Source of the DNA: Gammaproteobacteria bacterium
GTDB taxonomy: Bacteria > Pseudomonadota > Gammaproteobacteria > Pseudomonadales > Azotimanducaceae
Reading direction: 5' to 3'
Length of the DNA stretch: 64,000 bases
NCBI GenBank assembly: GCA_030123805.1
Contig: JASJXV010000001.1
Coordinates: 1-64,000 of the forward strand
Of the stretch, positions 58,519 through 64,000 are shown piece by piece. Made by a program: the position numbers and the translations under genes. How positions within the stretch are numbered: the first letter of the stretch is position 1; every line of letters starts with the position of its first letter. The notes under the pieces were generated by a model. It was not told the origin of the DNA. It saw nothing but the letters and a program-made list of their open reading frames with translations, and searched no databases.

Positions 58519-59625
58519 ATGGAAATTATTGCAGCCGTTGCCAACTCTGTTGAAACACCGTTTGAACTGAAAACTCTCGATCTGAAAGAGCCGGGTCCGG
58601 ATGAGATTCTTATAAAGATTCATGCTAGCGGTGTATGTCACACCGACGCGGCAGTCAAACAGCAACATATCCCCGCCCCCCTGCCAATGGTTCTTGGACA
58701 TGAAGGAGCAGGCGTGGTTGAAGTGGTGGGTGCAAGCGTGCAGGGATATGAGGTGGGTGATCATGTCCTGATGAGTTTTGATAGCTGCGGAAGCTGTCCC
58801 GCATGTAAAAGGGGCTATCCAACTTACTGTGCCAATTTCGTGGAATTAAACATTCTGGGAGACCTGGTTACAGGTACCACGCGACTGAGTGAAGCCGGAC
58901 AACCCATTAACGGTTCGTTTTTTGGACAGTCATCATTTGCAACCCATGCCGTTGTGACTACCCGAAATCTGGTTAAGATCGATAAGGATCTGCCTTTGGA
59001 TGTGCTGGCGCCAATGGGTTGTGGTATTCAAACAGGAATGGGCACTGTCATTAATACCCTTGCACCATCTGCTGGTAGTTCACTGGCTGTCTTCGGCACA
59101 GGCTCAGTAGGTTTGTCAGGCATCATTGCGGCGAAGATTACTGGATGCGCTAAAATCATTGCCGTCGATATTAAGCAGTCTCGACTGGATCTGGCCGCAG
59201 ACCTGGGAGCGACGCATACAATAGACGGCAGTGACACACAGAAGGTCGTAACTCAGATTCATGCGATAACAGGCGGCGGGGTTAACTATGCATTTGACAC
59301 AACAGGTGTGCCTGCTGTTGCGCGTGCCGCAATAGATGCGATGTGCAGTCAGGGTGTTTTAGCCCTGGTTGCAGCACCACCCGGAGGAACTGAGCTTAGC
59401 ATCGACATACCCATGACAGTAGCGACGGGTAAGACAATCCGGGGCGTAATTGAAGGTGATGCCGTACCGTCGGAATTCATTCCAAAGCTGATTGAATTCT
59501 ACCGAGCCGGTCAGTTGCCTTTGGAAAAAATGATTACAAAATATCCATTCGATCAGATTAATCAGGCATTCAATGACGTGGAGACAGGCAAAACCTTGAA
59601 GCCAATACTGATCATGCCTAACTAA
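58519..59625 (+). CDS. Zinc-dependent alcohol dehydrogenase (aryl-alcohol type)
   Basis: A 368-residue MDR enzyme, full length for class III/aryl-alcohol dehydrogenases. Seen: catalytic-zinc ligands GVCHTD and GHEGAG, structural-zinc cysteines in CGSCPACKRGYPTYC, and the NAD site FGTGSVGLSG. It probably oxidises a primary or benzylic alcohol. AAGGAG lies nine bases before the ATG. Its stop overlaps that of the opposing pseudokinase gene by two bases. Confidence 0.92.
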   Translation: MEIIAAVANSVETPFELKTLDLKEPGPDEILIKIHASGVCHTDAAVKQQHIPAPLPMVLGHEGAGVVEVVGASVQGYEVGDHVLMSFDSCGSCPACKRGYPTYCANFVELNILGDLVTGTTRLSEAGQPINGSFFGQSSFATHAVVTTRNLVKIDKDLPLDVLAPMGCGIQTGMGTVINTLAPSAGSSLAVFGTGSVGLSGIIAAKITGCAKIIAVDIKQSRLDLAADLGATHTIDGSDTQKVVTQIHAITGGGVNYAFDTTGVPAVARAAIDAMCSQGVLALVAAPPGGTELSIDIPMTVATGKTIRGVIEGDAVPSEFIPKLIEFYRAGQLPLEKMITKYPFDQINQAFNDVETGKTLKPILIMPN

Positions 59626-62600
59626 TCTTCAATTCGTGCAAACAGTAGTCTCAATTCATCCAACTTGTCTGGAATCAGGTGGTGTGCTTCGATGGCCGCC
59701 ATATCATAAAGCTCTTGCGCTGGTTGGGTAAAATCGCCAAAACCCAACACCCGGGAATATCTTACTAGCCATTGGGAAAGCCGGCTTATTGCTGCAAAAT
59801 CTTTATTCTCCCAGGCATGATGCAGCTCAGTCAATAGACTGCCCAGTCTGATAATAAACTGTTCCACTTGCGTATGGATTTTTGGATTATCAAGATTCAA
59901 TTGTGACCTGATTGGTTCAGTAGCAGGTTGCTCTGTAGATCCTCGTGCAAAAGCACCAGACGCGGGCTTTTCGGACGCGGTCGCGCCATCGACATGGTCT
60001 TGTAAGCCCGCTTGTTCGGCTGGAATTCCCGCATTTTGATATTCAGTTCCGGTCATGCCAATGTCGGTACCCAGGTCTATTCTGCCAACAAGATGTTTCA
60101 AATCAGCCAACCTTTCTTTGGCTCTGGCAAATTGGTGAGATTTCACCATTTCTTCAAGGTCTTTTGCTGGCTGAATCAAAGGATGCAATTTCACACTATC
60201 AGCTTCACCTCTAAACCTATAACAGAGTTTTGTTAATGCAGAATAATTGTCTGTCCCAAATGCCAAATCCATATTAGCAAGCTGAGATTCCAGCCGCGAT
60301 ACAGATTTCTGGACCAACTTTTGAATGGTAGGATTACTGACGTTTAAAGACGATCTGACCGGTCCGGTTCCCTGATATACTTTGACGTCACGAGAACGCA
60401 ACCCGGTACCTTGGCCCTGACTTATATCCACTGTCGGCGTAACGGGTTCGGACTTTAATTCTGTCTTGCGCTCTTGCGTGCTCTCACTGGAATCGGCTGC
60501 CGTTCGTGCTTGAACTTCTTCCTCTGCACTGGCAACTGCTTCTGCTCCAGCTCTTGCTTCCTCTTCCGCTTTCCTTTCTGCTTCGACTCTTCGCCTGGTT
60601 TCCTCGTCTACCCTGCTTTCTGCTTTGGTTCTTCGACTGGTTTCCTCGTCTAATCTTTTTTCTGCTTCTGCTCTTATTCTGGCTTCCTTTTCGGCACTGG
60701 CTTCAGTTTCCGCATTGGCTCTCTCTTCAGCCTTAATCCTGGCATCGACCTCGACTTTATTTCTGGCTTCAATTTCGGTCCTGGCAGCAATTTCCGCCTT
60801 AACTCTGTCTTGCATTGCCTGTTTTTCTCTTACCTCAGTGTTTAGCTGTGCTTCGGCTTGCGTTCTCGCTTCAACTGCTGCCTTGGTCTGATCTTCTGCT
60901 TCAACCCTTGCAATACCCTCTTTCCTCGCCTGGGCTTCCGCATTGGCTATCTTCTCTGCAAAGATTTTTACATCCGCCTGATGTGCGAGTGCTTCCTCAT
61001 TCTGCTGATCCTCGTCAACCAGGACTTCTATGGTGGCTTCAAATATAACCCCTCTACCTGGTTCACGCCTGACTACAATATCACCACCCATCACTTTGGC
61101 TATTCGCTTGCTTATAGATAATCCCAATCCTGCCCCTTCCCCTTGCACCTGTCCGGTATTGATTTCTCTCGCAATAAATTCAAGCAGGTTTTCGACTTCC
61201 TTTTCTGGCAGGGAGCTTCCAGCACCATGAACCGTCAACGTCAGAATCGCACTGGATTCACTCTCGATGATTCCCGGAACAACAATAATATCGTCCTTTC
61301 CAGAGCATTCAACTGCATTGCTAACGAGATTGGTAAGTATCCTTCTTATCTTTCCTGGATCAGAAATTATTCTTGGTGGCAGCTCGCCTTCAACCTGGGA
61401 AGAAACCAAAATCCCCTGATCCTTAACTTTGATATTCATCAGGTTTACGACATCATCAATCACAAACCTCGGGGAAAAAGATGCTACTGCGACGTCAGTG
61501 TTACCCGTTTCTATTTTGGACAATTCGATAATGTCATTAATCAACTCAACAGCTCTATCAGAGCTGGATGAAATGGCATCGATACACTTCCTGCTTGCTT
61601 CGCTCTCTATACCGAATCCGCGACGCAATACTTCCGCATATCCCAGAATTGCATTCATTGAGCCTTGAATATCCGGATTTAGCTGAGCCAACAGATCAGC
61701 ATGACTTGCCGGAACGTCTCCTTGTGTTGGTCCCGGATGTTGAAGTGATTGATTCTTCACCTCCAATTCCTCGAGATGCTTAAAGCTCACCAACACCCCA
61801 ACGCGTTTACCTGAGTCATCAAGAAGAGGAGAAGAGTTCGTCATGAAAACGCCAAACTTGTTACCGGCGGATTTAAGCCTGAGCCTTAGATTCACCTGTG
61901 GAACGCCCTCGATCAGCGCTTGACTCCAGGGCGCTTCAGCATCGCTAATAGGTGTTCCATCTGCATCCGCACTTCTCAGTATGAATGTCTTTTTCCCCAG
62001 CAATTCCTCACCTGACAATTTTACGATGTTTTTCATCGATTGATTAGCAAATACAATAGTCTGATCTGAATCCAGAATAAGCACTCCCTCATCCCTCGAA
62101 TCAAGTGCCGAACCTATCAGGGCTTTCATGGGTGGTGGCATAATCCGTTGGCGCAGCATTTTCATGCGATACAACATGAATCCAAACACCCCAATGACGG
62201 TAAGAAACGCGCCAAATCCGTAAAAAATCGAATAGCTTGATCTATCGGATACTGCAGATTTATCTGAGGTGGTCACTGAGGTGATCGGAACACTTCTCTC
62301 TTGTTCCTCTGGTGTAGCAAGCACAGGAGTGAATACAGGTAGCTGGCGAACCACCTCTTCCGCAGATTCCAGAGTAGCCGATTCAACAACCTCATCAGAT
62401 TTGACTTCTGTTGCCTCGGCATACACTTGCTCGGCTTCCGTGACTACAGCGGGTTCTGTTTGGTCAACTACCATTTCCAGGTTAACGATCATTTTGATCT
62501 GATCCCCGGCTACTTCCCTGATTTCAGCCAACACATCCTCTTCTATCGGAGAGTCGATATCCAACCACCAACTAATCCTGGACCTGGATCGATCAATCAC

Positions 62601-63092
62601 TTCAGAATCGAAACCCAATCTCGCCAGATTCGCTTGCCTTCGAATCGCGCTAACCCGGTTATTGAACACTCCCATTGACACGCGATTCTGATAGTCTCCG
62701 CCTTGCAAATAGACAATGTCTTTTATGTTACTGCTACGCAAAGACCGCAATTGGTCGTTAACTTTATAAAGTGATTCCAATCCAGGGCTGACAACGATGA
62801 AACCCAATGATTCCCGTTCCATTTTCTCCCGTTGTTCAACAGGTATGCTCTTCCCCGCAAGGATTTGTATCACCTGCTGAACTTTTGTTAGGTCATCAAA
62901 TGGTCCAAAGGTATGGCGAGAATCAGAAACTGGCCTGGATTCCTGACCAGCCGCCGTAACTGACAGGGTGTAAAAAATTGTTGTGAACACAATCAGGATC
63001 GATGTGTTCTTGCATCCACGGCAAAATCCTCTGAGCGCTAAACTCACCAGGTTTCTTCCAATTTCTTGCTTTCCGTGTGTTCGAATCTTCAT
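59622..63092 (-). CDS. SPOR-domain pseudo-histidine-kinase scaffold
   Basis: A 1156-residue membrane protein. In order: N-terminal hydrophobic signal/anchor (about 31-48), periplasmic SPOR-like domain (about 95-210), Glu-rich linker, helix 289-308, PAS (about 323-440), HisKA-like (463-535), HATPase-like (575-692), Ala/Glu/Arg coiled coil (703-870) and two Hpt-like domains (912-1006, 1061-1156). The kinase histidine is gone: LNPDIQGS (471-478) stands where SHEIRTP normally does, Pro473 replacing His. The G1 Asp is His622; Asn588, Asn592 and the GEGAGLGLS G2 box remain. The Hpt histidines are Tyr958 and Gln1107. It may bind ATP, but phosphotransfer is unlikely. Role inferred as a septum-linked scaffold. 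No clear SD; weak promoter near 63250-63276. Confidence 0.85.
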   Translation of the reverse strand: MKIRTHGKQEIGRNLVSLALRGFCRGCKNTSILIVFTTIFYTLSVTAAGQESRPVSDSRHTFGPFDDLTKVQQVIQILAGKSIPVEQREKMERESLGFIVVSPGLESLYKVNDQLRSLRSSNIKDIVYLQGGDYQNRVSMGVFNNRVSAIRRQANLARLGFDSEVIDRSRSRISWWLDIDSPIEEDVLAEIREVAGDQIKMIVNLEMVVDQTEPAVVTEAEQVYAEATEVKSDEVVESATLESAEEVVRQLPVFTPVLATPEEQERSVPITSVTTSDKSAVSDRSSYSIFYGFGAFLTVIGVFGFMLYRMKMLRQRIMPPPMKALIGSALDSRDEGVLILDSDQTIVFANQSMKNIVKLSGEELLGKKTFILRSADADGTPISDAEAPWSQALIEGVPQVNLRLRLKSAGNKFGVFMTNSSPLLDDSGKRVGVLVSFKHLEELEVKNQSLQHPGPTQGDVPASHADLLAQLNPDIQGSMNAILGYAEVLRRGFGIESEASRKCIDAISSSSDRAVELINDIIELSKIETGNTDVAVASFSPRFVIDDVVNLMNIKVKDQGILVSSQVEGELPPRIISDPGKIRRILTNLVSNAVECSGKDDIIVVPGIIESESSAILTLTVHGAGSSLPEKEVENLLEFIAREINTGQVQGEGAGLGLSISKRIAKVMGGDIVVRREPGRGVIFEATIEVLVDEDQQNEEALAHQADVKIFAEKIANAEAQARKEGIARVEAEDQTKAAVEARTQAEAQLNTEVREKQAMQDRVKAEIAARTEIEARNKVEVDARIKAEERANAETEASAEKEARIRAEAEKRLDEETSRRTKAESRVDEETRRRVEAERKAEEEARAGAEAVASAEEEVQARTAADSSESTQERKTELKSEPVTPTVDISQGQGTGLRSRDVKVYQGTGPVRSSLNVSNPTIQKLVQKSVSRLESQLANMDLAFGTDNYSALTKLCYRFRGEADSVKLHPLIQPAKDLEEMVKSHQFARAKERLADLKHLVGRIDLGTDIGMTGTEYQNAGIPAEQAGLQDHVDGATASEKPASGAFARGSTEQPATEPIRSQLNLDNPKIHTQVEQFIIRLGSLLTELHHAWENKDFAAISRLSQWLVRYSRVLGFGDFTQPAQELYDMAAIEAHHLIPDKLDELRLLFARIED

Positions 63093-63706: not shown

Positions 63707-64000
63707 TCAACCAGGTGAATGGACTTGGGATTGCTGTTGATAAAACTTGATCCAGTGTTGACCAATCTTCTTGATAAATGACAGAACAGCCTCGTTAGAA
63801 CCGAATGCTCTACAAGTTCGATTATGTTGCATGTTATAAAAGCACAACCAATCATCCACGTTTTGACCTAGTTTTCCAAGATTCCGGTACACTGTGATGG
63901 GTGGCAGAAGACCTGGATTATCTCTTTTTACTTGCGCGGTCCATACCAGCAACGACTGATAACCTCTTAAAGTTATATCAAGCACAGGTGGGTGATTTCC
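63707..64000 (-). pseudogene. Possible transposase C-terminal fragment
   Basis: A minus-strand frame open from the window end to a TGA at 63707. Its middle, TVYRNLGKLGQNVDDWLCFYN followed by a Thr/Arg stretch and FGSNEAVLSFI, resembles the C-terminal end of IS481/IS3-type transposases (the L-x-x-L-x-x-D-x-D-x-W-L-x-x-Y-N pattern). The catalytic part would lie beyond the window. It looks diverged and may be a relic; a different family is possible. Confidence 0.4.

Follow-up and report, generated by a model that had tools for sequence, protein, structure and literature searches.

What can select for a protein that keeps the architecture of a membrane histidine kinase with relay domains when every phospho-accepting residue has been exchanged? 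This question is raised by a minus-strand gene of the window, i.e. the whole 64,000-nucleotide stretch of contig JASJXV010000001.1 (assembly GCA_030123805.1, Azotimanducaceae) analysed here. It encodes a 1156 aa protein which joins an SPOR-related domain, a kinase-like module, a long Pro-free stretch and two Hpt-like domains, and which a first-pass annotation made from the sequence alone had described as phospho-dead but selected for a non-catalytic role. The explanation we favour, with a probability of roughly 55%, is that the product would be an envelope-anchored docking scaffold working without phosphorylation and descended from a hybrid kinase. Among the open-licence papers listed by our searches none on this architecture was seen, and the product is undescribed in this sense.

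Loss of phospho-sites and erosion of the ATP site

The open reading frame (ORF) is intact, and PAS_4, HisKA, HATPase_c and Hpt all score above the Pfam gathering threshold in the window protein (Hpt at 2e-6, in two stretches). Alignments place P473, Y958 and Q1107 at the three phospho-His columns, the same replacements of His by Pro, Tyr and Gln that had been read from the sequence alone. The first-pass annotation had also given the G1 Asp as changed to His622; the loss of the Asp holds, whereas the residue aligned with it is G623, H622 corresponding to the preceding position when the protein is aligned pairwise, without gaps, to the live kinase from the same genome (G000; 3.49 Mb, 252 contigs) and to that from genome G063. 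The N-box Asn and the G2 motif GxGLGL are retained in the window copy, from which the G1 Asp is lost. Neither the HisKA His, nor a full set of N, G1 and G2 boxes, nor an Hpt His together with a REC Asp, the hallmarks of a functional histidine kinase or phosphorelay, was found.

A search of the 206 genomes of the family with the SPOR-related and Hpt regions, whose loci were then read, counted the gene or a remnant of it in 15 genomes from five genera (G000, G002, G040, G122, G045, G188, G189, G051, G196, G197, G198, G199, G200, G203 and G207). Nine dead rows have a residue at the HisKA His column, and it is never His (Pro, Ile, Ser, Val, Arg or Gln instead), whereas three out of three live hybrids carry His; the alignment of this column is uncertain in the most eroded rows, and the aligned pieces of G199 and G196 begin only past it, the 26 residues ahead of them containing no His. 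The G1 Asp is lost from all 11 dead rows and present in both live rows covering it (the joined G008 row is gapped there), three of the 11 keep the N-box Asn, and only one, the window copy, has a complete G2 motif. To judge from these motifs, the ATP sensing suggested earlier is unlikely for the family, and sensing through PAS did not hold as a family trait either, since Pfam found no PAS match in the five relatives tested.

The Hpt domains have followed the same course. At the His column there is no His in the ten dead first domains (Asn in eight, Tyr and Arg in one each) or in the nine dead second domains (four Arg, three Lys, Gln and Thr), the latter set omitting G045, whose contig ends ahead of the column, and including G188, with Lys followed by a Lys-Tyr motif. 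By comparison, 14 of 15 Hpt domains have His in seven active hybrids (G000, G063, G008, G329, G317, G506 and G302); nine of these domains, eight with His, were retrieved from the last four genomes when both Hpt domains of the G000 paralogue described below served as BLAST queries, and the other six come from the first three. Moreover, the dead domains share residues of their own: Glu occupies +5 in nine of the ten dead Hpt1 domains, a position held by Ser or Ala in the 14 live domains, and all nine dead Hpt2 domains show Arg/Lys-Tyr at +4/+5, against Gly-Ser/Ala in the live ones. The window copy carries both new motifs, and the Lys/Arg at +3 is retained in 10/10 dead Hpt1 domains. The non-His member of the live set is the third Hpt of G506, which has Val and is flanked by two live domains (locus L131, minus-strand ORF, residues ~605-697); such a domain is a possible starting point for the dead ones.

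Relatives of the same architecture covering these sites thus also lack His, i.e. no orthologue with intact histidines was seen, and a recent loss in one copy was rejected because the losses are common to relatives. A substitute acceptor was rejected too: H464 lies nine residues ahead of P473, but none of the 10 other dead rows, several of them gapped there, has His at its column, and the Hpt column has none in 19 dead domains. By sequence, the protein is near certainly phospho-dead.

Probable descent from hybrid kinases and selection on the dead domains

The closest live relative found is a 993 aa paralogue on contig C18 of the same genome, 38% identical to the window protein over residues 295-691, in which Pfam identifies PAS, HisKA, HATPase_c, REC and two Hpt domains. 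It has the full motifs SHEIRTPMN and HWLKGSAGS and adjoins a protein with REC, GGDEF and EAL domains. G063 and G008 encode similar hybrids, as do G329, G317, G506 and G302 from other families of the order; outside the family the tandem-Hpt search returned live hybrids as best matches. A tandem-Hpt hybrid kinase adjoining a REC protein was seen at loci L038, L041, L056 and L129-L132, in several families of the order, the neighbour being of REC-GGDEF-EAL type in L038 (Pfam) and in L041 and L056 (by eye). Pfam places a REC domain between kinase and Hpt parts in both live relatives scanned, and no REC match was obtained in the window protein, where the long helix occupies this position.

A maximum-likelihood tree built from 30 kinase modules puts the 11 dead rows together on the same side of a moderately supported branch (91/87), recovered in 94% of bootstrap trees, and the live rows nearest to the window copy are hybrids; its exact place is unsure because its branch is long. 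Erosion has gone to different lengths: PAS, N box and G2 are kept in the window copy, G040 retains HATPase_c (4.9e-8) with a weak HisKA and no PAS match, and kinase profiles find no match in G051, G200 and G188. On these sequences the lineages read as an erosion series that spares the SPOR-related N-terminal part, of which G002 has half, together with both Hpt domains.

Rates of non-synonymous relative to synonymous change (dN/dS) were obtained by Nei-Gojobori counting for pairs with usable synonymous divergence. Between G040 and G122 the ratio is 0.11 for the transmembrane segment plus pseudo-kinase, 0.13 for Hpt1, 0.18 for Hpt2 and 0.24 for the helix; the transmembrane segment plus pseudo-kinase gives 0.20 (G199/G196), 0.15 (G198/G199) and 0.17 (G198/G196), and the SPOR-related domain 0.18-0.19 in three pairs. 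In G051/G197, where synonymous sites are saturated, identity reaches 90% in the Hpt domains and 63% in the helix. Domains without a use would not be expected to evolve in this way. For the window copy, which yielded no close orthologue, we infer selection from its relatives. Taken together with the losses common to relatives and the new motifs that replace the active-site motif, the conservation of the dead domains supports the non-catalytic role proposed earlier.

SPOR-related domain, long helix and Hpt folds

The complete set of SPOR-related domain, transmembrane helix, pseudo-kinase, helix and both Hpt domains lies in one frame in the window copy, G051, G200 and G040, whereas five copies (G122, G198, G199, G196 and G203) are truncated by contig ends and that of G188 ends near a contig edge past Hpt1, with Hpt2 on another contig. 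Short peptide repeats (PSAEIE, EP, KEPSASLN) were seen in loci L095, L097 and L104, directly ahead of the Hpt part in the first two.

A periplasmic SPOR-like domain had been proposed, and our profile and structural data sustain an SPOR-related assignment. In the window protein the Pfam SPOR match is weak (0.028 for the whole protein; 5.2e-4 for the domain alone, 20.7 bits against a gathering score of 21). Two out of seven relatives exceed the gathering score of PF05036 (43.9 and 26.6 bits) and five remain below it; at E values up to 0.1 the profile finds 7 of 8 members (best 3e-11). AlphaFold2, run on eight sequences, predicts a beta-alpha-beta-beta-alpha-beta RNP-type core at ~85-179 (predicted local distance difference test 90), and the only PDB sequence match at E up to 1 was 1x60, an SPOR-type amidase domain (E 0.017, weak). 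A structure search with this model returned assorted ferredoxin-like folds, the best being 6ozd (Z 9.8, root-mean-square deviation 2.5, 75 aligned residues), and no SPOR entry among the 50 matches listed, which excludes nothing. The strand SLGFIVV (residues 95-101) is invariant in all eight aligned rows. SPOR domains usually carry a glycan-contacting Gln (Q270 of RlpA); at that profile position, assuming that the published profile numbering equals that of Pfam, Val is found instead (L115, L119; column invariant in 8/8), so that binding of denuded glycan is doubtful. The segment 50-286 would be periplasmic and the remainder cytoplasmic, because basic residues follow the transmembrane helix at 287-308 (positive-inside rule).

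Related domains also occur C-terminally in HlyD-type and other proteins. One lies in the same genome (locus L039, 3170-4975 of contig C3), is 29% identical to the window domain and is not called SPOR by Pfam; loci L105, L106, L107, L112 and L195 look alike, the HlyD type having been checked with Pfam in L039. The SPOR-domain profile run against 390 genomes of the order retrieved the gene itself (3.6e-57) and this HlyD-type protein (2.5e-29); the next matches that were inspected (~1e-14 and weaker) lie in ORFs of ~200-640 aa. Candidates in longer ORFs (G201, G008, G020, G183, G001 and G060) were discarded as C-terminal SPOR-type domains of other proteins, and family matches in ORFs of ~220-350 aa were excluded by length, not read singly. 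A contig scan with the single window protein gave no match, and with alignment A1 it gave 10 loci, all in genomes already found.

The 170-residue coiled coil annotated earlier was not supported in this copy. Residues 700-880 contain four Leu and are Pro-free and rich in Ala, Glu and Arg, with a strong period of 2 and no heptad (3.5) periodicity; among relatives, G051, G040 and G122 show clear heptads, G200 is borderline, and G188 and G002 have none. The hydrophobic residues of the window helix alternate, and 42-bp and 18-bp tandem repeats lie within its coding stretch (60558-60720). For the Hpt-like domains two four-helix bundles were predicted, as the Hpt fold demands; HptB (7c1i) is matched with Z 13.8 (root-mean-square deviation 2.4, 103 aligned residues), and Foldseek gives probability 1.00 for several Hpt proteins at E > 0.1. 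Helical bundles easily reach such Z scores, so the Pfam match and the alignments carry this assignment.

Feature map and gene neighbourhood

Table 1. Features of the gene in the window (start and end positions, strand and basis of assignment)
Feature	Position	Strand	Basis
Gene, phospho-dead SPOR/histidine kinase-like/Hpt-like protein, 1156 aa	59622..63092	-	Intact ORF, ATG start, no internal stop
N-terminal signal peptide or first transmembrane helix, residues 30-49	62946..63005	-	Hydropathy
SPOR-related periplasmic domain, residues 54-205	62478..62933	-	Alignment, AlphaFold2, Pfam SPOR in relatives, PDB 1x60
Transmembrane helix, residues 287-308, basic residues after it (cytoplasmic side)	62169..62234	-	Hydropathy
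PAS domain, residues 330-442	61767..62105	-	Pfam PAS_4 1.5e-9
HisKA-like (DHp) domain, residues 469-530	61503..61688	-	Pfam HisKA 1.2e-9, alignments
Codon 473, Pro replacing phospho-acceptor His	61674..61676	-	Alignments
HATPase_c-like (CA) domain, residues 578-689	61026..61361	-	Pfam 7.5e-15, alignments
Codons 622-623 (His-Gly), Gly623 at G1 Asp position	61224..61229	-	Pairwise and multiple alignment
Pro-free Ala/Glu/Arg-rich stretch, probably helical, residues 700-880	60453..60995	-	Composition, periodicity, tandem repeats
Hpt-like domain 1, residues 911-1010	60063..60362	-	Alignments, predicted four-helix bundle, HptB 7c1i match
Codon 958, Tyr at Hpt His column	60219..60221	-	Alignments
Hpt-like domain 2, residues 1060-1156	59625..59915	-	Pfam Hpt best stretch 1076-1155, alignments, predicted bundle
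Codon 1107, Gln at Hpt His column	59772..59774	-	Alignments

Ten Pfam families matched the window protein at E up to 1, with no LysM or FimV among them; an NCBIfam scan covered the best 25 of 61 matches. A PhzF (PF02567) and/or TauD (PF02668) gene lies at the 3' end, in convergent orientation, in G051, G197, G122, G045 and G188, i.e. in three genera (the TauD of G188 was identified by eye), and this common flank supports orthology; being convergent, it is not an operon. The upstream flank varies among genera, and next to the 3' end of the window copy lies a gene resembling alcohol dehydrogenases (by eye), so that the gene for the dead protein seems to stand alone. At the edge of the window a minus-strand frame still open at 63707-64000 resembles, by eye only, the end of an IS3-type integrase.

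Discussion

The evidence presented above makes it tempting to speculate on how such a protein would work and how it arose. Its ancestor would have been an active hybrid kinase of the order PAS-HisKA-HATPase-REC-Hpt-Hpt, in which the SPOR-related periplasmic domain replaced the sensor, the long helix replaced REC, and the phospho-sites were lost. In the present protein the SPOR-related domain and the transmembrane helix would provide the anchor at the envelope, the dead DHp/CA module would serve in dimerisation or docking and the long helix would act as spacer, so as to place at an envelope site two dead Hpt bundles which could dock REC domains or other partners without phosphotransfer, in the manner of FimL and DivL. 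Known relatives may represent the steps of this conversion: from the active hybrid to a form with the phospho-sites lost and PAS and G2 kept (the window copy), then to forms in which the ATP site is gone, and finally to one with the kinase module deleted and the dead Hpt pair kept. That a hybrid phosphorelay turned into an envelope-anchored structural docking scaffold through these very steps is, in our opinion, an evenly balanced proposition.

Several observations weigh against a docking scaffold at the envelope. The gene is rare, being found in 15 of 206 genomes, and four of its relatives are broken or remnants (the ORF is split in G197, G045 has a frameshift and two in-frame stops, and G189 and G207 hold fragments), so that some lineages can do without it. 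The SPOR-related domain and the linker evolve loosely (dN/dS of 0.44 and 0.74) in G199/G196, the closest pair, and for the window copy no close orthologue turned up. The G002 gene (locus L043, 3920-6229), a single frame with a signal-like N-terminus, has both Hpt domains and half of the SPOR-related domain without the kinase module and the second transmembrane segment, a layout from which its two dead Hpt domains may be periplasmic. The dead third Hpt of G506 sits in a live hybrid, so that a dead Hpt by itself is no proof of a scaffold protein. Nor does an operon offer a clue to a partner, since the flank is convergent in three genera and the neighbours of the window copy differ.

A hybrid kinase slowly heading for loss, devoid of function and with its frame still open, would suit the broken and remnant copies, an ATP site that erodes stepwise, and the disappearance of PAS and of the kinase module in some of the lineages. 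Nonetheless, dN/dS values of 0.11-0.20 in the dead domains of the measurable pairs, Hpt domains more conserved than the helix, the common derived motifs and the invariant SLGFIVV strand render slow decay quite improbable. The same conservation of the Hpt folds, with predicted bundles intact and Lys/Arg at +3 in every dead Hpt1, could instead serve a competitive inhibitor which sequesters the receiver domains of live phosphorelays and does no scaffolding. A plant pseudo-HPt, AHP6, acts by sequestering receiver domains. Such an inhibitor needs neither an anchor nor a long helix, and the phosphorelay that it would most obviously target is largely missing: at E < 1e-20, and the dead G002 gene aside, the live tandem-Hpt region was matched in G000, G008 and G057 only, of the 206 genomes, and among the matches listed, with at most six candidates scored per genome, a REC-GGDEF-EAL neighbour of high identity (52-100%) over REC and the rest was confined to the same three. 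Other REC proteins would still be at hand as targets, and we consider inhibition unlikely rather than far-fetched.

This distribution also bears on the relation to the parent kinase. Most carriers gave no match to the live tandem-Hpt hybrid, so that a mere brake on this parent does not account for the dead protein, and modulation of the hybrid or of its cognate regulator was discarded as a general role, both being confined to three genomes among the matches listed; in most carriers the protein seems to act without either. The shortage of live hybrids counts likewise against a conformational receptor in which the SPOR-related or PAS domain would sense a ligand and the dead kinase module would hetero-oligomerise with live kinases, as RetS reportedly does. 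The window copy has indeed kept its transmembrane helix, PAS and DHp-CA module, with the identity to the live paralogue noted above, and a precedent is described for the pseudokinase ChrS, which forms heterodimers with HrrS (PMC9491836). The absence of PAS from the five relatives tested makes us regard this receptor as very doubtful, a shade more so than slow decay. We retain the envelope-anchored docking scaffold, and compare it below with known systems.

FimV deserves mention in this context. Its C-terminal domain was found in 14 of the 15 genomes with the dead gene and in 138 of all 206 (on contig C109 in the genome of the window); this co-occurrence is suggestive at most because the genomes are related, and it led us to reject the idea that the dead protein replaces FimV. 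To our knowledge, FimL has no SPOR-related domain, transmembrane helix or kinase module, and DivL has no Hpt or SPOR part. Of the published systems FimL offers the nearest working model: it resembles the window protein in its two Hpt-like domains with non-His residues at the acceptor sites, although it is related to the N-terminus of ChpA, and the two proteins were compared by description only. It is described as having Gln at both acceptor sites (PMC3019171) and as interacting with PilG, a REC protein that it helps to hold at the pole, and with FimV, a polar hub (PMC10519157). The likeness of DivL is that of a pseudo-histidine kinase acting as binder of a phosphorylated regulator: its description gives Tyr at the DHp His site and binding of DivK~P, with N, G1, F and G2 boxes retained (PMC4211667), whereas here G1 is lost throughout and G2 is complete only in the window copy. 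RcsD is presented as a membrane protein whose kinase domain is inactive and precedes an Hpt domain (PMC13317618), and it differs in that its Hpt retains the reactive His, both Hpt domains being dead here and separated from the kinase module by a long helix. The plan of wall domain, transmembrane region, spacer and client domain recalls HubP/FimV, for which a periplasmic wall-binding domain, a transmembrane region, a long cytoplasmic part and a C-terminal client-binding domain are reported (PMC12918733), with LysM and TPR in place of the SPOR-related and dead Hpt domains. The tandem-Hpt hybrids of contig C18 and other genomes share homologous PAS, DHp, CA and two Hpt domains, and differ by their REC, their phospho-sites and another N-terminal part. 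With live and half-eroded relatives and common new motifs at hand, the path from relay to scaffold could be traced residue by residue, and the Hpt1 Glu and Hpt2 Arg/Lys-Tyr motifs lead to definite predictions on what dead Hpt domains would bind. Pseudokinases and pseudo-Hpt proteins are known singly, as DivL, RcsD and FimL; here one protein combines a dead kinase module with two dead Hpt domains.

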